The notes under the pieces: model-generated
Databases searched by the model: none
The model's input: the letters and a program-made list of their open reading frames with translations, nothing else
Told to the model about the DNA's origin: nothing
Shown here: positions 2,111-62,022 of the stretch, one piece after another
Numbering within the stretch: the first letter of the stretch is position 1
How the letters are laid out: the number at the start of each line of letters is the position of its first letter
NCBI RefSeq assembly: GCF_029688625.1
Contig: NZ_JARULC010000003.1
Location: 744,001 to 808,000 of the forward strand
DNA from: Qipengyuania marincola
GTDB taxonomy: Bacteria > Pseudomonadota > Alphaproteobacteria > Sphingomonadales > Sphingomonadaceae
Length of the DNA stretch: 64,000 bases
Direction: 5' to 3'
Position numbers and translations under genes: made by a program

Positions 2111-3097
2111 ATGACCGCCCAGACCGACCTACCGACCGGCGAGGACCTGCTCGTCGCTATCGATCGTCTCCGCAAGGAGAAGAACGCGATCATCCTCGCG
2201 CATTATTACCAGACCGCCGATATCCAGGACATCGCGGATTTCGTCGGTGACAGTTTGGAGCTCAGCCGCAAGGCCGCCGAAACCGATGCGGACGTCATCG
2301 TATTCTGCGGCGTGAAGTTCATGGCCGACACGGCGAAGATTCTCAGCCCGGAAAAGATCGTCGTCCTGCCCGACATGGATGCCGGCTGCAGCCTCGAAGA
2401 CAGCTGCCCGCCGGAAAAGTTCAAGGCCTTCCGCGAGGCGCATCCCGACCATATCGCGCTGACCTACATCAACTGCTCGACCGAGGTGAAGGCACTGAGC
2501 GACGTGATCGTCACCAGCTCCAGCGCAGAAACGATTATCAGCCAGATACCCGAAGACCAGAAGATCATCTTCGGCCCCGACCGGCACCTTGGCGGCTACA
2601 TGAGCCGCAAGTTCAATCGCGAGATGTTGCTATGGCCGGGCGTGTGCATCGTGCACGAGGCCTTCAGCGAGACCGAGCTGCTCAAGCTCAAAGCGCAGCA
2701 CCCCGACGCCCCCGTCGCCGCGCATCCCGAATGCCCGCCGACGATCATCGACCACGCGGATTACGTCGGCTCGACCAGCGGCATCCTGCAATTCGCCAAG
2801 ACTTTCGAAGGCGACACGCTGATCGTCGCGACAGAGCCGCACATCATCCACCAGATGGAAAAGGCGCTGCCGGAGAAGACCTTCATCGGCGCGCCCGGCG
2901 CGGACGGCAACTGCAGCTGCAATATCTGCCCTTACATGGCATTGAACACCATGGAGAAGATGTACGCCTGCCTGCGCGATCTCGAACCGCGTATCGAGAT
3001 CGAGGAGGGGCTGCGCCTGAAGGCCAAGCAAAGCCTCGATCGCATGCTTGAAATGGCCAGCGGCACTATCGGCAAGGGTGATCTGGGCAAGGTCTGA
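2111..3097 (+). CDS. nadA: Quinolinate synthase NadA
   Basis: Condenses iminoaspartate with dihydroxyacetone phosphate to quinolinate in the de novo NAD pathway, using an oxygen-sensitive [4Fe-4S] cluster. The 328 residues match the usual length of A-type NadA. Family motifs are clear: an early IILAHYYQTADIQDIADFVG, FCGVKFMADTAKIL, the cysteine in YINCSTEVKAL, the cysteine in HPECPPTI, and the C-terminal CSCNICPYM. The three cysteines that ligate the cluster in known enzymes correspond to NCST, HPEC and the CNIC region. No nadB or nadC is adjacent. The start has GGGATC about 8 bases upstream. Confidence 0.97.
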   Translation: MTAQTDLPTGEDLLVAIDRLRKEKNAIILAHYYQTADIQDIADFVGDSLELSRKAAETDADVIVFCGVKFMADTAKILSPEKIVVLPDMDAGCSLEDSCPPEKFKAFREAHPDHIALTYINCSTEVKALSDVIVTSSSAETIISQIPEDQKIIFGPDRHLGGYMSRKFNREMLLWPGVCIVHEAFSETELLKLKAQHPDAPVAAHPECPPTIIDHADYVGSTSGILQFAKTFEGDTLIVATEPHIIHQMEKALPEKTFIGAPGADGNCSCNICPYMALNTMEKMYACLRDLEPRIEIEEGLRLKAKQSLDRMLEMASGTIGKGDLGKV

Positions 3098-3107
3098 CGA
3101 TTATGCC

Positions 3108-3932
3108 CTAGTGCTCCAGCCGCTCCGTGAGCATGTGCGGCGTCGCCATGCCGAAAGCGAGCGCGACGGCGAGCTCCAGCGCCAGCCATCCCTGCCATAC
3201 AGCCATGCCGATGGCCGCCGCGCCCAGCGTCGCAATGATGGTCGGTGCAGCCACGGCTCGCACGACGCGGTCTACGCCATAGGCAGCAATCTGTCGGCGC
3301 TGGATCGGAAGGGCATGCATGACGAGGAAGATCAGCCCCACGGCGAGCACAGGGTGAAACGCCGCGCAAGCCAGCGCCGCAGCCGCCGATGATAGGGCGC
3401 CTCGCTTGCGTCCGGCGACCGCCACGGCCGCAAGGAACAGCCCGATCGCACCTGCGATCTGCAAGCCACCCATCAGAAGGTCCGGAGGGGCGCGACCCAA
3501 TATGGCCGCGAACACCGCAGAGGTCTCGTTCGCGCGCAGCAAGGCGCTGCCGCCGATCGCCAGCACCGCGATGGCGAGATTGACCAGCTGGCTCATTCCG
3601 CTTTCACTGCGCGCGAAATGCCAGGCCGACAGGGACAGGAACAGCGCCAGTCCCGCGACCGGTGCAGCCAGGAACATGGCCGCAATGGCAAGCCCGGTCG
3701 CCACATACGCCAGAATGAGCAGCGGGGAATAGCCGCGCATGGCGCCACCGTTTTCGTCTCCCGCGCCATGCCCGAGGCCCGCCACGAACATCGCAAGTCC
3801 CACCCAGATTGGCGTCGCCTCTCCCGCAACATGGGCAACGGCGGCAAAGGCGAACAATGCCGCCGAAAGCCAAGGGGCCCCGGCATCAAGCCGAGGCCCC
3901 TCGTGCGATCCGAAGATCGGCCGGGTCGTCAT
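3108..3932 (-). CDS. blh: Brp/Blh-family beta-carotene 15,15'-dioxygenase
   Basis: Membrane-embedded oxygenase that splits beta-carotene symmetrically into two retinal molecules, the chromophore of microbial rhodopsins. The 274 residues hold several hydrophobic helices with the histidine clusters expected of the iron site: AHVAGEA, GLGHGAGDENGG, AWHFARSE, and FHPVLAVGLIFLVMHALP. The ATG overlaps the rhodopsin stop as ATGA (3930-3934), so the two genes are translationally coupled and supply chromophore and apoprotein together. Its substrate would come from the crtB-crtI-crtY genes at 57.7-62.0 kb. Identification rests on motifs and on the rhodopsin neighbour. Confidence 0.92.
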   Translation of the reverse strand: MTTRPIFGSHEGPRLDAGAPWLSAALFAFAAVAHVAGEATPIWVGLAMFVAGLGHGAGDENGGAMRGYSPLLILAYVATGLAIAAMFLAAPVAGLALFLSLSAWHFARSESGMSQLVNLAIAVLAIGGSALLRANETSAVFAAILGRAPPDLLMGGLQIAGAIGLFLAAVAVAGRKRGALSSAAAALACAAFHPVLAVGLIFLVMHALPIQRRQIAAYGVDRVVRAVAAPTIIATLGAAAIGMAVWQGWLALELAVALAFGMATPHMLTERLEH

Positions 3933-4798
3933 CAGTCGCCGCGGACGGAGGCGGCCTGCGAACCCACCGGCGTGGTCGAAAGCGCCTCGGCAGACGGCAT
4001 GTAGCCTTCCAGCGCACTGCGGCGCAGCACGTAACGCGACAGGATCACCCCGTAGATCAGCTTCGAGGAGATATCCGCGATGCTGTAGAGCAGCTGGCGT
4101 ACCACCACGACATCACCGGTAAAGCCGAGCTGCGGCAGGGCGTAGGCGATGGGATAAAGACCCCAGGTCGCGAGGAAATACCACCAGATGTTCTTCGGCC
4201 ACGCCTTGAGTTCGGCGGGGCTGTTGGCGATGCCGGCGGTAATCACGCCGCGCACCTCGATGATCAGCCAGACGAAGAAGGCAGTGGAGATGATGCCCCA
4301 CAGATTCAGGCGCGACCAATCGCCGGTTTCGCCGAACTGGCCGTAGAGGCCGGTCCAGATCATCAGCAGCGCCGGGATCGCCATGCGCAGCGCGCGCTTG
4401 TGCAGATCCGGCCGGGACAGGGCGAAAGCGATGGGCAATTGCGTCAGCAGCAGCGGGACGGTGATCGTCCAGTTGCCGTAACGATAGGCGTTGGTGAAGG
4501 TCTCACCCTCGGTCAGCGGGACATACTGACCGCCGACGAACTGGTAGACGTCCTGCCAGGCCGTGAATTCGCGGAACAGGCTGAGCCCCGCACTGGCCAT
4601 TACGACCGCCGACAGGATCGGCACGATGCGATAACGTGGTGCAAGCTGCATCGACGTCATGAGAAAATAGAGAATAAAGGCGAAATGCGCGCCATAGCTG
4701 ACCATCAGGATCAGCGAACCAGTCGTGTATTGCCCAGCTGTCAGGGTGACCAGGTTCTCGATATTGTTGACGGCATTGGATGGATTAGGAACAAGCAT
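3932..4798 (-). CDS. NTQ-motif microbial rhodopsin, predicted inward light-driven chloride pump
   Basis: A 288-residue type I rhodopsin with seven helices. The retinal Schiff-base lysine is K246 in SIADISSKLIYG. Helix C reads RYGNWTITVPLLLTQ, placing N109, T113 and Q120 at the three positions that are D-T-E or D-T-D in proton pumps and N-D-Q in sodium pumps. N-T-Q is the signature of the inward chloride pumps described from Nonlabens marinus (NM-R3) and Fulvimarina. Residue L117 aligns with the position where leucine gives green absorption in proteorhodopsins. The frame stays open further upstream, but the ATG at 4798 is the natural start: it has AAGGGA 6 bases upstream, and the 100 extra residues otherwise added are arginine-rich non-homologous sequence. 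Coupled to blh by an ATGA overlap. Confidence 0.95.
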   Translation of the reverse strand: MLVPNPSNAVNNIENLVTLTAGQYTTGSLILMVSYGAHFAFILYFLMTSMQLAPRYRIVPILSAVVMASAGLSLFREFTAWQDVYQFVGGQYVPLTEGETFTNAYRYGNWTITVPLLLTQLPIAFALSRPDLHKRALRMAIPALLMIWTGLYGQFGETGDWSRLNLWGIISTAFFVWLIIEVRGVITAGIANSPAELKAWPKNIWWYFLATWGLYPIAYALPQLGFTGDVVVVRQLLYSIADISSKLIYGVILSRYVLRRSALEGYMPSAEALSTTPVGSQAASVRGD

Positions 4799-4840: not shown

Positions 4841-4926
4841 CGACCGCACACATGCTCGAACCACGCTCTGCCGTGCGCAAGCATGGCAACGAAATGAGGT
4901 GCTGGTCGTTATGTTCCCGATCCAGC

Positions 4927-6270
4927 ATGGATCGAGGTCATGTCCTGAAAGGCATCTGCTTGCTCCGACCCGCCCGTATCTCCGGCTTTCTCGGCTGGAT
5001 CTTTCATCGCCTTTTCGCCAGCTACTGGATGCTGGCCGTGCTGGCGGTAATCGCGGCCTTTCCCTGGCACTTTGCGGTTCTCTGGCTCGACCGGGCAATC
5101 GTGTCCGACTGGCTGCTGCGCCACGATCTGGTGCCGGTCGCGACAGCCGATACGGCGAAGGATTTTCTCGGCATCGCAGCCGGGATCAATGCGGCCTTCA
5201 TCACTCTCTATTTTTCCATCACGCTGATCGTTCTCAGCATGGCGGCAGGCAATCTGGGCGTGCGGCTGATCGACCGCTGGGTGGAACGCGGGCTGGTGCG
5301 GGTCAGCCTTGCCGGCCTGTCGTTTTCTCTCGTGTGCTCTCTCCTCGCCATGCTCTCGGTCGATGCCGAAGCTGCGCTGGAGGACACGCCCCTGCTGCTG
5401 GTCATCGTGGTCACGCTGCTGCAGGCTATCAATGTGGCGATGCTGTCGGTCTCGCTGCACAGCCTGGCGCGGACCATGTTCGTCGACACCTCCATCGACC
5501 GGCTGGCAAATGATGCCGACAATCGCAGCCTCGATCTGAAGGGCGGCCAGCCGGCGGACGAAGACTACCAGCACCAGCTCCGCGCCCCGCGCGAAGGCTA
5601 TATCGAGGATGTCGATATCGCGAAGCTGCGTGCGCTATTCGGCGACACGAAGCACCGGATCGTGGTCCACGGCGCGCCGGGCCAGCATGTCGTGGACGGC
5701 CAGACGCTGGTGGAAAGCGATACCCCTTTCGATGAGAAACAGATGGCGCGCGCCATTCCCATCGGTCCTTACCGCTCGGACAATCAGGGCGTGGTGTTCC
5801 GCATCCGCTTGCTGGTGGAAATCGCCGCGCGTGCCCTGTCACCGGCGGTGAACGATTTCTATACGGCGCTGACCTGTGCGGACAAACTGGCGACGATCAT
5901 GGAAGGCCAGACGGCGACCTATATTCCCGAAGGCGAAGTCCCGGTGCTGGTCGAGGCCGAGTGGCTCGTCCTCACCGGACAGGATTTTCGCGGGTTGTTC
6001 GAAGATCCGCTGAATGCATTCCGCCAGGCTGCCTGCGCCTATCCATCGGTGGCGATCCGCATGATCGGAAACTATGGCCGCATCGCATCGCGCCGCTATC
6101 ACAACGGCGCGCCCGAAGGCATGGTGGTCCTGCTCGATCGCCTTGCGCGCGAATTGCGCGACCATGCCTGTCAATCAGCGGGCTTCGACCGGGATCGCGA
6201 GGATATCCGTGCCGCCTACGACGCGGCGTTCGGCGAAGAATTGCAACAGATCGCAAGGGACGAACCCTAA
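4927..6270 (+). CDS. DUF2254 membrane protein (first of pair)
   Basis: A 447-residue DUF2254 family protein of unknown function. Four hydrophobic segments fill the first half (around ASYWMLAVLAVIAAF, GIAAGINAAFITLYFSITLI, LAGLSFSLVCSLLAML and LLLVIVVTLLQAINVAMLSV), followed by a soluble C-terminal region. That region carries the family motif ARALSPAVNDFYTAL, also present in the next gene. The frame is open from an ATG at 4852, but that would leave 53 bases for two divergent promoters. The ATG at 4927 puts a short tail before the first helix, as in the neighbour; neither start has a strong ribosome binding site. Its stop overlaps the next start (TAATG). Confidence 0.8.
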   Translation: MDRGHVLKGICLLRPARISGFLGWIFHRLFASYWMLAVLAVIAAFPWHFAVLWLDRAIVSDWLLRHDLVPVATADTAKDFLGIAAGINAAFITLYFSITLIVLSMAAGNLGVRLIDRWVERGLVRVSLAGLSFSLVCSLLAMLSVDAEAALEDTPLLLVIVVTLLQAINVAMLSVSLHSLARTMFVDTSIDRLANDADNRSLDLKGGQPADEDYQHQLRAPREGYIEDVDIAKLRALFGDTKHRIVVHGAPGQHVVDGQTLVESDTPFDEKQMARAIPIGPYRSDNQGVVFRIRLLVEIAARALSPAVNDFYTALTCADKLATIMEGQTATYIPEGEVPVLVEAEWLVLTGQDFRGLFEDPLNAFRQAACAYPSVAIRMIGNYGRIASRRYHNGAPEGMVVLLDRLARELRDHACQSAGFDRDREDIRAAYDAAFGEELQQIARDEP

Positions 6271-7580
6271 TGGCGGAGATCCGTTTTTTCTGGTCGAGGC
6301 TGAATGCCAACTACTGGTTCTATCCGGCCCTGTTCTGCATCGGTGCGGCTGCACTCGCCTTTACGATGGTGGCGATCGACCGTGCCGGTTTCGCCGAATT
6401 CCTGAACGATGTGTCATGGATTGTCCCGGCACGGCCGCAGGGCGCGGCCGATATGCTCACCGTCATGGCAGGAAGCATGATCGGGGTGGCCTCCACCGTG
6501 TTCTCCATCACCATCGCCGCGGTCGCCTATGCCAGCGGGAATTACGGACCGCGGTTGCTGACCAACTTCATGGAGGATCGCGGCAACCAGCTGAGCCTCG
6601 CCACGTTTATCGGCAGCTTCGTCTATGCCCTGATCGTGCTGCGTGCCGTGCGCGCCGAAGACGAAACCGCCACCGGCGCGGAATCGGTGGCAACGGCCCT
6701 GCCCGGCTTCGCCCCGCAATTGTCTCTGCTGGTGGCCTATGGGCTGATGGGCCTCTGCGTGGCCGTGCTCGTATTCTTCCTCAATCACGTTCCCTCCAGC
6801 ATCCGTATCAACAAGGTCCTGCAGGGCATCGGCGCACGACTGCTCGACGGGATCCGCGACACTTATCCGGTGGAAGACGAGTTCGGAGACGCCCGGCAAC
6901 CAGAGGGCGGCAAGCCGATGACCGCATGGAAGACGGGTTACGTCCAGCTGATCGATTTCGAGGACCTCGTGGAGATTGCGCGCAAGCACGATTGCACGAT
7001 CTCGCTCGATGTCCGCACCGGCGATTTCGTGCACCGGGACATGGTGTTGCTCAAGATCGATGGTTGCGACCCCGAAGACCTGATCGACAAGGTGCGCGGC
7101 TGTTTCACGCTGGGCGCGACGCGCACGCCCGATCAGGACCTGCAATTCCTGATCGATGAGCTGGTGGAGATCGGAATGCGCGCGCTGTCGCCGGGGATCA
7201 ACGACCCGTTCACGGCCGTAACGGCGCTGCACTGGCTGGGCGCCGCGACCGCCGAAATCGGCCGCCGCGACCTGCGCAAGAACATCTGCGGTTCGGAAGA
7301 GGATGAATGCCCCGTCATCCCCGTGCCGGACGATTGGGACCACTATGTGAAGCGCGGCTTCGGTTCGATCCGCAGCGCCGTGGCAAGCTCGCCCATCGCT
7401 GCCGAGGTCATGCTCGATACGCTGGCGCATGCGGCGGTGCCGATCCGCGACGAAACCCGTCAGCAATCGCTGAAGGACGAAGCGGAAAAGCTGGCCGAGC
7501 AGGCGCGGGTGCTGATGGTCGGCCCCGACCTTTCCCGGTTCGAGGACCACCTGAGGAAATTCAACCAGAACTTCTGGTAG
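6270..7580 (+). CDS. DUF2254 membrane protein (second of pair)
   Basis: A 436-residue DUF2254 paralogue of the preceding protein. It has four predicted membrane helices in the first 170 residues (YPALFCIGAAALAFTM, a MIGVASTVFSITIAAV segment, LATFIGSFVYALIVL and LSLLVAYGLMGLCVAVLVFF), then a soluble domain with the shared motif RALSPGINDPFTAVTAL. The start ATG shares one base with the previous stop codon, so the two are translationally coupled and may form a complex. An open frame extends upstream inside the previous gene but is not needed. The pair is divergent from the rhodopsin operon. Function unknown. Confidence 0.85.
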   Translation: MAEIRFFWSRLNANYWFYPALFCIGAAALAFTMVAIDRAGFAEFLNDVSWIVPARPQGAADMLTVMAGSMIGVASTVFSITIAAVAYASGNYGPRLLTNFMEDRGNQLSLATFIGSFVYALIVLRAVRAEDETATGAESVATALPGFAPQLSLLVAYGLMGLCVAVLVFFLNHVPSSIRINKVLQGIGARLLDGIRDTYPVEDEFGDARQPEGGKPMTAWKTGYVQLIDFEDLVEIARKHDCTISLDVRTGDFVHRDMVLLKIDGCDPEDLIDKVRGCFTLGATRTPDQDLQFLIDELVEIGMRALSPGINDPFTAVTALHWLGAATAEIGRRDLRKNICGSEEDECPVIPVPDDWDHYVKRGFGSIRSAVASSPIAAEVMLDTLAHAAVPIRDETRQQSLKDEAEKLAEQARVLMVGPDLSRFEDHLRKFNQNFW

Positions 7581-56687: not shown

Positions 56688-57557
56688 CTAGAAGGTGTAG
56701 CCGATCCCCAGCGCCGCGCTCCATTGATCTGCATCGCCGCGAATGCTCGTGAAAGGCGTTTCCTTGGCATCGCCGAGCAGCCGCGAATAGCCGCCGAAGG
56801 CGATCAGCGCGAGCCCACCATTGGTCGCGTCGCCGTCGAGATCGTAGCCCAGCAGCAGGTTCACCCCCGCCCGGTCGAAGCCGCCATCGGCATCGAAGGC
56901 CGGCAGGGCCACGCCAGGTTGTACGAAATTGATCTGCGGGACCGAATAGTAATACTCCGCATAGTCATCGTTCACCCAGTTTGTGCTGAGCGAGATCGAG
57001 GCGATAGCCGCGCGGCTGAGCGGCGTGAAATAGGTGACGCTGGGGCTGACGGTGAAGCCACTGTGCGCGCCCGCGACATCGAAGAGCACATCGGTGCTGA
57101 CTGTCAGGCTGTCGAAGGGATTTAGCAAGCCGGGAAAGCTCAGCCCGACCGTCGGACCGACCTCGATCGCAGTGTCGAGTTCGCCATATTGCTCGACCAC
57201 CTCGTCCTTGATGCGGTCGGCGCGATTATTGCGGATGCGTGCGGAAATGCCGGCGGAGATATCCACGCCACTCTCGGCATCCGGCAGGAAATCGAGAGCG
57301 AGACCGGCTGGCCGGGGATCGATGCCGATCCCGCCAAGCCGGCCCTGCACGATCGGGATTGGCGTAAACACGTAGTCGTCGGATCCATCGTAGCTGGGCG
57401 AATATACACCGCCAACACCGATGCTGATCCAGTTGTCGTCGAACACGCTGTCCTCGGCGAAGGGATCGCCGGTCGGAGGCTCCTGCTCCTGCGCGGAGAG
57501 CTGGGTCGCCGATACGAGTGCAAGGGCAGCGATCGCCGTGGAAACTGTGGTTTTCAT
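56688..57557 (-). CDS. MipA/OmpV family outer membrane protein
   Basis: A 289-residue protein with a signal peptide (MKTTVSTAIAALALVSATQL, cut after LSA). The mature part has ISIGVGGVYSPSYDGSDDYV and PIPIVQGRLGGIGIDPRPAG, both typical of the MipA/OmpV beta-barrel family, and ends in WSAALGIGYTF with the terminal phenylalanine needed for outer membrane insertion. MipA scaffolds peptidoglycan enzymes in E. coli; OmpV relatives have other roles, so function is uncertain. GAGAAAG precedes the ATG. Divergent from crtY. Confidence 0.9.
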   Translation of the reverse strand: MKTTVSTAIAALALVSATQLSAQEQEPPTGDPFAEDSVFDDNWISIGVGGVYSPSYDGSDDYVFTPIPIVQGRLGGIGIDPRPAGLALDFLPDAESGVDISAGISARIRNNRADRIKDEVVEQYGELDTAIEVGPTVGLSFPGLLNPFDSLTVSTDVLFDVAGAHSGFTVSPSVTYFTPLSRAAIASISLSTNWVNDDYAEYYYSVPQINFVQPGVALPAFDADGGFDRAGVNLLLGYDLDGDATNGGLALIAFGGYSRLLGDAKETPFTSIRGDADQWSAALGIGYTF

Positions 57558-57628
57558 GAAGTGCTTTCTCATTTTCCCCCGTGCCGTTCCCGGCGTCCGT
57601 GTCAGCCTTTTCAATTCGCAGTGCGGCG

Positions 57629-57651
57629 TTGCGTTCCCCCGGATAACGCAA
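57629..57651. promoter_or_regulatory. Inverted repeat upstream of crtY
   Basis: TTGCGTT (57629-57635) and AACGCAA (57645-57651) are perfect inverted repeats around 9 bases, 42 bases before the crtY start in the crtY / mipA-like divergent gap. It could be a regulator site or an mRNA hairpin. It does not match the TGT-N12-ACA pattern bound by PpsR/CrtJ. Confidence 0.4.
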
Positions 57652-57693
57652 GGCGATTGCCCGGCGCGCCCGCATTGCCTAAGCCCCTGCGCG

Positions 57694-58881
57694 ATGACCG
57701 GGCGCGCAATCGACATGGCGATAGTAGGTGGCGGCCTTGCCGGTGGCCTCGCTGCCCTTGCCGTGCATCGTGCGCATCCAGCCCTCGAAATCGCCCTGTT
57801 CGAAAGCGGCGACGTGTACGGCGGCAACCATCGCTGGAGCTGGTTCGACAGCGATCTTGCACCGGCGGGCGAGGACTTGCTCGCTGCGTTTCCCCAGACA
57901 CGCTGGGACGTCGGGTACGATGTCCGCTTTCCGGGACTGGAGCGCACCCTCGCATCGACCTATCGCTCGCTCGCCAGTCGCGATTTCGACGCGACCCTGC
58001 GCCGCCTGCTTCCACAAGCCGCGCTCCGGCTGAACTCGCCCGTCGCGGAGGTCGCGGCGGATAGCGTGCAGCTTGCGACGGGCGAGAAGGTGCGCGCGCA
58101 AATCGTTGTCGATTGCCGCGATGCGCTGCCTACGCCGCACTTGCGCGGTGGCTGGCAACTGTTTTTGGGGCGTCACTTGCGGCTCTCCTCCCCGCATGGG
58201 ATCACGCGACCCATCGTGATGGACGCGCAGGTCGAACAGCACGATGCCTATCGCTTTGTCTATACGCTGCCGCTCGGCACTGACGAGTTGTTCGTCGAGG
58301 ACACCTATTACGCTGACAGCCCGGTGCTCGATCGCGAAAGCCTCTCGCGCCGCATCGACCGCTATTGCGCAGCCAATGGGTGGAGCGGCGAGACGGTGGG
58401 CGAGGAAACCGGCGTTCTGCCGGTCATTACCGGTGGGGATTTTGCTGCCCAGCGCCAGTCCCTCGCCACGCCCGGTGTCGTCGCGATCGGCGCGCGCGGT
58501 GGGTTCACCCATCCCCTCACCAGCTATACCGTCCCGTTCGCAGTGGACAACGCCCTGACCTTGGCACGCCATGCCGCATCTCCGGCGCAAAAGCTGTCCG
58601 CCCGGTTCGAAAGGCGCGCGCATGACCATTGGCGCGACACGGCATTCTACCGCCATCTGGGCCGGATGCTGTTTCTCGGAGGCGAGCCGGAGGAACGCTA
58701 TCGCATCTTCGCGCATTTCTATCGGCTGCCCGAACCGTTGGTGGAACGCTTCTATGCCGGGCGGTCCACCCTTCCGGACAAGGGCCGCATTCTGATCGGC
58801 AAACCGCCGATCCCGATACCCGCGGCAATCCGGGCCCTGCTTGGCAAGGGCGCGCCGCTCGTCCATGAAGGAAGACCATGA
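57694..58881 (+). CDS. crtY: Lycopene beta-cyclase CrtY
   Basis: A 395-residue flavoprotein that cyclises both ends of lycopene to give beta-carotene. The N-terminal dinucleotide motif is DMAIVGGGLAGGLAALAVHR; other family features are NHRWSWFDSDL, VVDCRDALPTPHLRGGWQLF, FVYTLPLGTDELFVEDTYY and the C-terminal ARGGFTHPLTSYTVPFAVDN. The ATG at 57694 gives a normal length; an earlier open frame is not homologous. First gene of crtY-crtI-LOG-crtB; its stop overlaps crtI as ATGA. Confidence 0.95.
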   Translation: MTGRAIDMAIVGGGLAGGLAALAVHRAHPALEIALFESGDVYGGNHRWSWFDSDLAPAGEDLLAAFPQTRWDVGYDVRFPGLERTLASTYRSLASRDFDATLRRLLPQAALRLNSPVAEVAADSVQLATGEKVRAQIVVDCRDALPTPHLRGGWQLFLGRHLRLSSPHGITRPIVMDAQVEQHDAYRFVYTLPLGTDELFVEDTYYADSPVLDRESLSRRIDRYCAANGWSGETVGEETGVLPVITGGDFAAQRQSLATPGVVAIGARGGFTHPLTSYTVPFAVDNALTLARHAASPAQKLSARFERRAHDHWRDTAFYRHLGRMLFLGGEPEERYRIFAHFYRLPEPLVERFYAGRSTLPDKGRILIGKPPIPIPAAIRALLGKGAPLVHEGRP

Positions 58882-60428
58882 ACGCCGAGACGAAAACGCC
58901 GCCCACCGCCGCGGGCGAAGCCCAGACTGCCGAGATTGTACCCACCGGGAAAACGGCCTGCGTCATCGGGGCGGGATTCGGCGGGCTGGCGCTCGCCATC
59001 CGGCTGCAATCCGCCGGCATCCAGACCACTTTGGTCGAGGGACGCGACAAGCCCGGCGGCCGGGCTTATTATTGGGAAAAAGACGGTTTCACCTTCGATG
59101 CCGGCCCGACCGTTATCACCGATCCCGATTGCCTGCGCGAGCTCTGGGAACTGACCGGACACGACATGGCCGAGGATGTCGAGATCGTGCCGGTGATGCC
59201 CTTCTATCGCCTCAACTGGCCCGACGGCACCAATTTCGACTATTCCAACGATGAAGAGCAGCTCTTCAGCGAAATCGCGGCGCTCAATCCTTCGGACGTG
59301 GCTGGCTATCAGCGCTTCCTCGACTATTCCGAGGCGGTTTATCGCGAAGGCTACGTAAAGCTGGGGCACAAGCCCTTTCTGGACTTCAAGTCGATGCTCA
59401 AGGCCGCGCCGGCCCTTGCCAAGCAACAGGCCTGGCGCAGCGTCTACTCGATGGTGTCGAGCTACGTCGAGAACGAGAAACTGCGCGAGGCGCTGAGTTT
59501 CCATACCCTGCTGGTGGGCGGCAATCCGATGAAGACCAGCAGCATCTACGCGCTGATTCACAAGCTGGAGAAAGACGGCGGCGTGTGGTGGGCGAAGGGG
59601 GGCACCAATCGCCTCGTCGCCGGCATGATCCGCCATTTCGAGCGCATTGGCGGGACGGTCCGGATTGGCGATCCGGTGCTGCAGGTCCACACGCTGGGCA
59701 CGAAGGCGACGGAGGTCGAGTGTGCTTCGGGCTGGCGCGAGCGGTTCAATGCCGTCGCCAGCAATGCCGACATCATGCACAGCTATCGCAACCTGCTGTC
59801 CGATTCCAAGCGGGGCAAGAGCTATGCCCGGGGGCTGTCTCGCAAGAAATTCAGCCCCAGCCTGTTTGTCGTCCATTTCGGGATCGAGGGAACCTGGCCG
59901 GGCATCCCGCACCACATGATCCTGTTCGGGCCGCGCTACAAAGGCCTGCTGGAAGATATTTACGACAATGGCGTGCTGCCGGAAGACTTCTCGATCTACC
60001 TGCACCATCCCTCGGTGACCGATCCCGACATGGCGCCCGAGGGCAAGAGCACCTTCTACGCGCTGGTCCCGGTCGCCCATATGGGCAAGCTGGCAGTCGA
60101 CTGGGACGAGATGGGCCCGATCCTGGAAAAACGCATTCTCGACGAGATCGAGCGGCGGCTGATCCCCGACCTGCACGACCGGATCGTGACCAAGTTCCAT
60201 TATGCGCCGAGCGATTTCGCGACTGACCTCAACGCCCATATGGGCAGTGCCTTCAGCCTCGAGCCGGTGTTAACCCAAAGCGCATTCTTCCGGGGGCATA
60301 ATCGCGACGACGTGATCGACAATTTCTATCTCGTAGGCGCGGGCACGCATCCTGGCGCAGGCATCCCCGGCGTGGTCGGCAGCGCCAAGGCGACCGCCGG
60401 CCTGATGGTGGAGGATCTGGTCGAGTGA
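58878..60428 (+). CDS. crtI: Phytoene desaturase CrtI
   Basis: A 516-residue FAD enzyme that converts phytoene to lycopene by four desaturations. The FAD motif is CVIGAGFGGLALAIRLQSAG; other diagnostic parts are GGRAYYWEKDGFTFDAGPTV near the N terminus, GIPHHMILFGPRYKGLL, PEGKSTFYALVPVAHMG, and the C-terminal LVGAGTHPGAGIPGVVGSAK. The start overlaps crtY (ATGA) and the stop overlaps the LOG gene (GTGA). About 25 N-terminal residues before the FAD motif are longer than in many CrtI proteins. Confidence 0.97.
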   Translation: MNAETKTPPTAAGEAQTAEIVPTGKTACVIGAGFGGLALAIRLQSAGIQTTLVEGRDKPGGRAYYWEKDGFTFDAGPTVITDPDCLRELWELTGHDMAEDVEIVPVMPFYRLNWPDGTNFDYSNDEEQLFSEIAALNPSDVAGYQRFLDYSEAVYREGYVKLGHKPFLDFKSMLKAAPALAKQQAWRSVYSMVSSYVENEKLREALSFHTLLVGGNPMKTSSIYALIHKLEKDGGVWWAKGGTNRLVAGMIRHFERIGGTVRIGDPVLQVHTLGTKATEVECASGWRERFNAVASNADIMHSYRNLLSDSKRGKSYARGLSRKKFSPSLFVVHFGIEGTWPGIPHHMILFGPRYKGLLEDIYDNGVLPEDFSIYLHHPSVTDPDMAPEGKSTFYALVPVAHMGKLAVDWDEMGPILEKRILDEIERRLIPDLHDRIVTKFHYAPSDFATDLNAHMGSAFSLEPVLTQSAFFRGHNRDDVIDNFYLVGAGTHPGAGIPGVVGSAKATAGLMVEDLVE

Positions 60429-61006: not shown

Positions 61007-62022
61007 ATACCCCCCGCCCCCTGACGACCAGCAAGATTCGGGCGACCCCCGCGCGCGCCGGTGGCGGGCGCGAGCGGGCCAATCTCGTCGCCAAGGCGCG
61101 CGAGGCGATCGAGGATGGATCGCAGAGTTTCGCTGCAGCAAGCAAGCTGTTCGACCGCCGCACGCGCGAGCGCAGCTGGCTACTCTATGCCTGGTGTCGC
61201 CGCTGCGACGATATTGCCGACAATCAGGACAAGGGCGGCCCGCTGGGCGACCAGGGCGACCTGAAAAGCGCGGAAGACCGCGTGCAGGCGATCCGGGTGT
61301 TGACGAAGCGGGCGCTGGATGAACAGCCGACCGCCGATTTCGCTTTCGATGCCTTCGGTCAGGTCGCCGATGAAACCGGCCTTACATGGGACCTCGCCAA
61401 CGACATGATCGGCGGCTTCGCGCTCGATGCCACGCGCTGGCAGCCGGCGACCGAAGCCGACATGTTGCGCTATTGCTACCACGTGGCGGGATCAGTCGGG
61501 ATCATGATGGCGGTCGTAATGGGGGTTAACAAGGACGACGGCGAAACGCTGGACCGGGCCTGCGATCTCGGCCTCGCCTTTCAGATTGCCAATATCGCGC
61601 GCGACATCGTGGAAGATGCGGAAGCGGGCCGATGCTACCTGCCGAAGACCTGGCTCGACGAGATGGGTTGGCAGGCGGGCGAACATGCTCTGCCGGAAAA
61701 CCGCTTTGCACTTGCCGGCCTGATGCCGCGCCTGATCGCGCTGATGGAAAAGCACGAAGAGGCCTCGAAGCTTGGGGCGAGAAAGCTGCGGTTTCGCCAG
61801 CGCTGGGCCGTGCTGGCAGCGGCCAATATTTATGGCGCGATCGGGCGCAAGGTGCTGGAACGTGGCCAGCTGGCCTGGGACAAGCGCACGCGCGTCGGCG
61901 GGCTGGAAAAGTCGTGGCATGTCGCGACGGCTTTCGTCGAAGCCCTGTGGAACCGCCCGGCCGGACCGCGCGAGCCGATTTTGTGGAGCCGCCACGATTT
62001 CCGCCCCGTCGCCGGGTGGTAG
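61003..62022 (+). CDS. crtB: Phytoene synthase CrtB, apparent CTG start
   Basis: Joins two geranylgeranyl diphosphates into phytoene. The family core begins RANLVAKAREAIEDGSQSFA, with the first aspartate motif DDIAD (residues 69-73) and the second, DIVED (201-205), inside IARDIVEDAEAGRCYLPKTW. No ATG, GTG or TTG exists in frame between the upstream in-frame stop (60994-60996) and a GTG at 61282, which would delete the first aspartate motif. The CTG at 61003 overlaps the LOG stop as CTGA, the same 4-base coupling as the two upstream junctions, and gives 339 residues beginning with a Thr/Arg-rich tail. I infer CTG as the start; other non-standard starts are possible. Confidence 0.88.
   Translation: MNTPRPLTTSKIRATPARAGGGRERANLVAKAREAIEDGSQSFAAASKLFDRRTRERSWLLYAWCRRCDDIADNQDKGGPLGDQGDLKSAEDRVQAIRVLTKRALDEQPTADFAFDAFGQVADETGLTWDLANDMIGGFALDATRWQPATEADMLRYCYHVAGSVGIMMAVVMGVNKDDGETLDRACDLGLAFQIANIARDIVEDAEAGRCYLPKTWLDEMGWQAGEHALPENRFALAGLMPRLIALMEKHEEASKLGARKLRFRQRWAVLAAANIYGAIGRKVLERGQLAWDKRTRVGGLEKSWHVATAFVEALWNRPAGPREPILWSRHDFRPVAGW

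Follow-up and report, generated by a model that had tools for sequence, protein, structure and literature searches.

An NTQ rhodopsin gene with an adjoining blh-like gene and a divergent DUF2254 gene in Qipengyuania marincola

Genes at the locus

The window, a stretch of 64,000 nucleotides from Qipengyuania marincola, contains a microbial rhodopsin gene followed directly by a blh-like gene and, divergently oriented, two consecutive DUF2254 genes (DUF2254a and DUF2254b). The coordinates are listed in Table 1. The rhodopsin matched the Pfam family Bac_rhodopsin with 113.4 bits (cut-off 24.6), the blh product matched BCD (PF15461; beta-carotene 15,15'-dioxygenase) with 48.2 bits (cut-off 28), and DUF2254a matched DUF2254 (PF10011), the sole Pfam family found for it, with 186.7 bits (cut-off 28.8). 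DUF2254b occupies the same site in congeners that have no rhodopsin. The frames of DUF2254a and DUF2254b seem, from ORF coordinates and translation, to share one base at 6268-6272, in the TGATG style of the rhodopsin/blh junction.

Table 1. Features of the rhodopsin locus and carotenoid genes in the window
Feature	Positions	Strand	Remarks
nadA, quinolinate synthase	2111..3097	+	flank on the blh side; boundary of the putative cassette
Brp/Blh-like beta-carotene 15,15'-dioxygenase (blh)	3108..3932	-	274 aa; Pfam BCD
NTQ microbial rhodopsin	3932..4798	-	288 aa; ATG at 4798, stop at 3932
Bipartite element GGAAC-N22-GTTGC	4886..4917	-	starts 119 bases ahead of the rhodopsin start codon
DUF2254a, divergent predicted membrane protein	4927..6270	+	start uncertain: in-frame ATGs at 4852, 4894 and 4927
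DUF2254b, second DUF2254 protein	6270..7580	+	flank; boundary of the putative cassette
crtY, lycopene beta-cyclase	57421..58881	+	true start probably internal; family match from residue 98 of the ORF
crtI, phytoene desaturase family protein	58878..60428	+	
crtB, phytoene synthase	61114..61896	+	extent is that of the Pfam match

The product of blh is called Blh-like here because its score against NCBIfam TIGR03753 (66.2) is below the cut-off of 95.25, which is a naming threshold and not a structural feature. In an alignment of 26 Blh-like rows, H55, H105 and H206 were present in all and H266 in 25; these four are presumably the metal-site histidines of Brp/Blh. The stop codon of the rhodopsin gene (TGA) and the start codon of blh (ATG) share one A, so that the frames overlap at base 3932 alone; there is no four-base ATGA overlap, and the ATGA coupling given in the initial annotation is corrected to this TGATG junction. 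Loci L002-L004 share the junction; in the remaining loci with blh, other bases follow the rhodopsin stop codon.

The crtY-crtI-crtB genes lie about 53 kb from the rhodopsin-blh pair on the opposite strand and therefore fall outside its message. Three polyprenyl synthase genes, one of which could be crtE, were found in the genome, all of them outside the window. The proposal that pump and chromophore are made from one message, with the crt genes completing the pathway, was thus borne out in part: the pairing with the adjacent blh is real and crtB, crtI and crtY are present in the window, but the crt genes do not belong to the same message. Encoded directly after the pump, the Blh-like enzyme should cleave beta-carotene to the pump's retinal, and the genome can plausibly make retinal, though not from a single transcript.

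The rhodopsin and its assignment

Helix C of the rhodopsin carries N109, T113 and Q120 at the positions of BR D85, T89 and D96, and the retinal lysine is K246; R106, D242 and, in helix B, E77 are also present. Translation and alignment agreed with the residue numbers of the initial annotation (N109, T113, Q120 and K246). The position of KR2 D116 is occupied by T113 and not by Asp, with Thr in all rows of the NTQ clade, and the DTE (or DTx) motif of xanthorhodopsin-type proton pumps was not found, the corresponding residues being NTQ.

The comparison with NM-R3 and the Fulvimarina rhodopsin suggested in the initial annotation was carried out, and the NTQ motif proved common to all three proteins. 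The best PDB matches were entries of the chloride pumping rhodopsin of Nonlabens marinus (ClR, NM-R3), with E-values down to 1.3e-55. NM-R3, whose structures have been solved, also shares the R/D pair and the retinal lysine, but it is 40.4% identical over 275 aligned positions and has S-Q in helix B where the window protein has R76-E77 and its clade R-E or Q-E. The rhodopsin of Fulvimarina pelagi (FR, locus L015) is much closer, with 78% identity over residues 7-278 (75.9% across the 282 positions aligned by MAFFT). The sequence directly shows membership of the rhodopsin family, an NTQ motif, the Arg/Asp pair, the retinal lysine and the close kinship with FR, which also has E77 and a blh gene directly downstream; the two Blh-like proteins are 41% identical. 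Close rhodopsin relatives were sought in the genome collection, which yielded 23 loci, F. pelagi among them; together with the window these make 24. NTQ, R106, D242 and K246 are kept at the aligned positions in all 24 and also in every NTQ-clade row of the wider alignment, and blh adjoins the rhodopsin in 18 of the 24, the window and FR included. E77 is likewise common to 24/24 loci, including FR, and is therefore by itself no argument against chloride, even though NM-R3 differs there. The NTQ rows shown in the wider alignment also have the helix-E WG pair that includes G168; we take this glycine to be the one that permits carotenoid antenna binding in xanthorhodopsins.

The rhodopsin tree comprised 51 different rows: 36 alphaproteobacterial NTQ rhodopsins, NM-R3, one NDQ and 13 DTE pumps. 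FR and the window protein were placed within one branch holding all 36 NTQ rows with support of 93/92, the first value being just under the tree tool's mark of 95 for firm support. The 13 DTE pumps formed a separate branch (100/100), and NM-R3 and the NDQ pump (L059) stood beside the 36-row branch at positions that are unsure because both of their branches are long. The NTQ rhodopsins of Citromicrobium and Sphingopyxis baekryungensis, which appear as ClRs in the accessible text of PMC4585134, belong to the window's clade with 64-70% identity. Citromicrobium-type genes occupy the same nadA site; unlike the window, these loci (L016, L017 and L019-L021) have neither blh nor DUF2254a.

The available portions of PMC4585134 and PMC9728251 present FR as a Cl- pump with the NTQ motif. 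For NM-R3, the excerpts of PMC4999514 report that N98 and T102 contact Cl- and that most of the mutants tested at these two residues lose or more than halve their activity, T102N retaining about 70%. N98 and T102 correspond to the conserved N109 and T113 of the window protein. Given the kinship with FR, the published status of FR as a pump, the placement in the NTQ branch and the Cl- contacts of NM-R3, we consider it highly probable that the window rhodopsin is an NTQ pump of the FR/NM-R3 type that uses light to bring chloride into the cell. The initial annotation had read the NTQ motif in this way, and the 78% identity to FR, the branch composed entirely of NTQ rows, the retention of N109 and T113 and the absence of NDQ and DTE motifs all support that reading. 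The pump is a fresh member of an already known family, which it extends.

By analogy with its relatives, N109 and T113 would hold Cl- next to the protonated Schiff base, where it would take the place of the missing carboxylate counterion. Isomerisation of retinal would shift the ion toward the cytoplasm, so that each cycle would carry a negative charge inward, increasing both the inside-negative membrane potential and the chloride content of the cell.

An outward sodium pump of the NDQ kind, related to the ErNaR of an Erythrobacter, was weighed against this assignment. Such a function would fit the next-best PDB matches after the first ClR entries, 8qle and its relatives (E 9.3e-54; deposited as bacteriorhodopsin-like protein), which are presumably ErNaR, and the family does hold one NDQ pump, L059 of genome G285. 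Position 113, however, is Thr instead of Asp throughout the NTQ-clade rows, and the NDQ row has Glu at the position of S73, which is taken as ErNaR E64 on the basis of the accessible text of PMC11006869; we regard sodium pumping as extremely improbable. E77 was also considered as an ErNaR-type extra counterion and ruled out: the position of KR2 L74/ErNaR E64 appears to align with S73, and E77 is a different residue from ErNaR E64 because the Glu of L059 falls at the S73 position.

The divergent DUF2254 gene and the intergenic element

A PDB sequence search with DUF2254a gave no relative at E up to 1. Its AlphaFold model had a mean pLDDT of 85.9, and a Foldseek search of the PDB with this model returned no match at E<=0.001, the membrane part being barely covered. 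The looser Foldseek list consisted mostly of designed helical repeats and other helical proteins matched to the C-terminal part, which is read as a common helical arrangement. A literature search on DUF2254 and COG4325, which we take to be the COG of DUF2254, found no paper on a link with rhodopsins. In the accessible text of the literature searched, DUF2254 was named by a study of predicted protein knots and a machine-learning study of Salmonella, and by no others.

Neighbourhoods were counted over the 24 loci with L005 left out, where the contig ends on the DUF2254 side, which gave 23 assessable loci, 17 of them with blh. DUF2254a divergently adjoins the rhodopsin in 15 of these 17 (the L002 copy is shortened) and in none of the six loci that have no blh (L016, L017, L019, L020, L021 and L024); in the first five of the latter, the divergent neighbour is DUF2254b. 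The usual gene order is nadA, blh, rhodopsin, DUF2254a, DUF2254b, and several loci have about 2 kb of other sequence by nadA. The trio was also found at other sites: beside an mfd-like gene in Sphingomonas baiyangensis (L013), between LOG-like and Crp-like genes in genome G184 (L080), between LysR and glutamate dehydrogenase genes in G100 (L085) and, in another family, in Hellea (L022); there blh lies at the contig end, and the next gene found on the DUF2254 side encodes GAPDH. Locus L014 of isolate NP26 resembles L085, with no nadA or DUF2254b within 4 kb. The two exceptions among the blh-bearing loci are FR and L018. In the F. pelagi genome, unlike the window, a DUF2254 gene was not found to a distance of about 4 kb from FR, and matches further away were only weak (best E 4.9e-11). 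The Novosphingopyxis locus L018 sits between ribosomal protein genes, and its nearest DUF2254a-like gene (36%) lies elsewhere. None of the 12 DTE rhodopsin loci (L045-L056) had a DUF2254 match within flanks of about 1.5 kb (355 bases on one side of L050).

DUF2254a at 43% identity or more was present in 20 of the 298 sampled genomes of the family: in 11 it lies by a rhodopsin of intact length (the one in G100, counted here, has one in-frame TAG), in one by a decayed rhodopsin (G026), and eight have no rhodopsin match. In these eight (G283, G009, G146, G131, G032, G059, G251 and G115), the nadA site holds both DUF2254 genes, and G146, G131 and G059 have a gap of about 2.2 kb between nadA and DUF2254a. 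In the DUF2254a tree, the rhodopsin-less rows are interleaved with the others, and well-supported branches force at least two changes. This pattern fits repeated loss of rhodopsin-blh that left DUF2254a behind, though gains may also have occurred. Distant DUF2254a-like genes (34-37%) occur in four genomes with no known rhodopsin linkage, the NTQ gene of one of them, G051, being on another contig.

In genome G026 (L075, 6997-8184), matches to the decayed rhodopsin are limited to residues 10-73 and 227-287, the blh match is in two pieces, and DUF2254a is retained between the same flanking genes. NP26 (L014/L019) and G100 (L085/L083) each have two different NTQ rhodopsins in one genome. The trio-type gene lies at one site, and the nadA site holds a Citromicrobium-type gene that has no blh.

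The bipartite element in the intergenic region recurs in related loci. Among the 23 different rhodopsins that have blh and DUF2254a alongside, 18 are preceded by GGAAC and GTTGC with a spacer of 22 or 23 bases, the element starting 95 to 134 bases ahead of the aligned start of the rhodopsin. No such element was found upstream of L028, L008, L011, L013 and L022, the last having one on the other strand. L005 also carries it, and a form with a 21-base spacer occurs in L039. It was found in none of seven Citromicrobium-type rows, none of 13 DTE rows, the NDQ row or 17 more distant rows scanned, nor in FR, L018, L024, L044 or the remnant L075. Over 74 upstream stretches, seven same-genome repeats included, there were 25 matches against 0.18 expected from letter shuffles, a count that is a description and no independent test because the pattern was drawn from some of the same sequences and the rows are related. 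An AAC and a T-rich stretch recur inside the spacer, and a tighter pattern had a single match in the 2.99 Mb genome, the one upstream of the window rhodopsin. The EcfG promoter of Sphingomonas melonis, given as GGAAC-N17-20-GTT in the accessible text of PMC6599016, is similar, but the spacer of the element is too long for this general-stress promoter (22 bases in the window, 22-23 in other rows, 21 in L039), and that identification was rejected. GGAAC-N16/17-CGTT had two matches in the window, at 468 and 2044, which is near chance (mean 0.76).

The role of DUF2254a was judged from these distributions. We lean slightly towards the view that it is a bystander, long established in tandem at the nadA site and next to the pump by chance; a functional partnership with rhodopsin-blh is conceivable, though we think it rather unlikely. 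This ordering follows from the genomes that have DUF2254a without a rhodopsin (8 of 298), the interleaved tree and the distant copies with no known linkage, and FR and Novosphingopyxis, with rhodopsin-blh and no DUF2254a alongside, point the same way. Chance adjacency is less easily squared with DUF2254a keeping its divergent position beside rhodopsin-blh at four more sites where the outer genes differ (L013, L085, L080 and L022), or with the absence of DUF2254 matches from the DTE loci. A reading in which the rhodopsin is a light sensor or other non-pumping protein signalling via DUF2254a would agree with the frequent adjacency, and net transport is not proved by a motif alone. FR, however, is described as a pump in the available text of the papers cited above, with no DUF2254 gene found in the roughly 4 kb around it, and DUF2254a itself matches no Pfam family besides DUF2254, so that we hold a signalling role to be very unlikely.

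On a tentative and rather unlikely reading, the chloride pump preferred here would be part of a three-gene chloride cassette in which the NTQ pump and the retinal enzyme cooperate with DUF2254a and one intergenic element sets both arms. DUF2254a could then be a membrane protein that partners the pump, perhaps by conducting ions or by sensing, for example as a controlled way out for the chloride or membrane potential accumulated through pumping or as a sensor of either, and the element might link expression of the rhodopsin-blh and DUF2254a arms. If this were true, this branch of DUF2254 would gain a function. The linkage of DUF2254a and the intergenic element, neither of which appears in the initial annotation, are what is new here, leads worth an experiment; the neighbour gene is the useful part, since its recurrence beside a light-driven ion pump suggests a concrete role that can be tested.

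Occurrence and a second photosystem

Two adjacent Photo_RC genes were found in the window's genome outside the window (G000:C3:581416-583079) and, by family and arrangement, are probably pufL and pufM. The NTQ gene is the sole rhodopsin match in this genome, and the four sampled genomes of the genus had neither rhodopsin nor Photo_RC. The recurrent linkage of DUF2254a to the pump also offers a way to ask what leads a bacterium equipped with bacteriochlorophyll genes to retain a chloride pump. Dual genotypes with rhodopsin and bacteriochlorophyll are published, as the accessible text of PMC7762795, PMC13043013 and PMC12654162 indicates. The genome of F. pelagi, like that of the window, has two Photo_RC matches, and its dual genotype is noted in the available part of PMC7762795. 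Sphingomonas sp. AAP5 likewise combines a rhodopsin with reaction-centre genes, but its rhodopsin is a xanthorhodopsin according to the excerpts of PMC7762795 and PMC13043013, whereas the window's genome has the NTQ gene as its only rhodopsin match.

An NTQ gene of intact length (at least 64% identity) was present in 18 of the 298 sampled family genomes. Among family genomes, Photo_RC above the cut-off was not enriched with the NTQ gene (5/18 versus 50/280 others; Fisher p=0.34), and four of the five genomes with both came from one genus (g7). In the selected set of 22 genomes with named NTQ loci, eight had Photo_RC matches; these genomes represent 22 of the 23 relative loci, L019 being in the same isolate as L014. 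A class-wide sample of 385 genomes contained a close rhodopsin relative in one, the window's own. Genome G285 holds the NDQ rhodopsin L059, with Glu at the S73 position, together with the NTQ rhodopsin L033. Among 72,556 plasmid records, four matched the NTQ rhodopsin, none at 60% identity or more. A plasmid of Jannaschia sp. M317 (L123, 5001-5376) carries a fragmentary match to the NTQ rhodopsin in three pieces, which cover 43% of the query at about 51% identity; it is annotated as a hypothetical protein.
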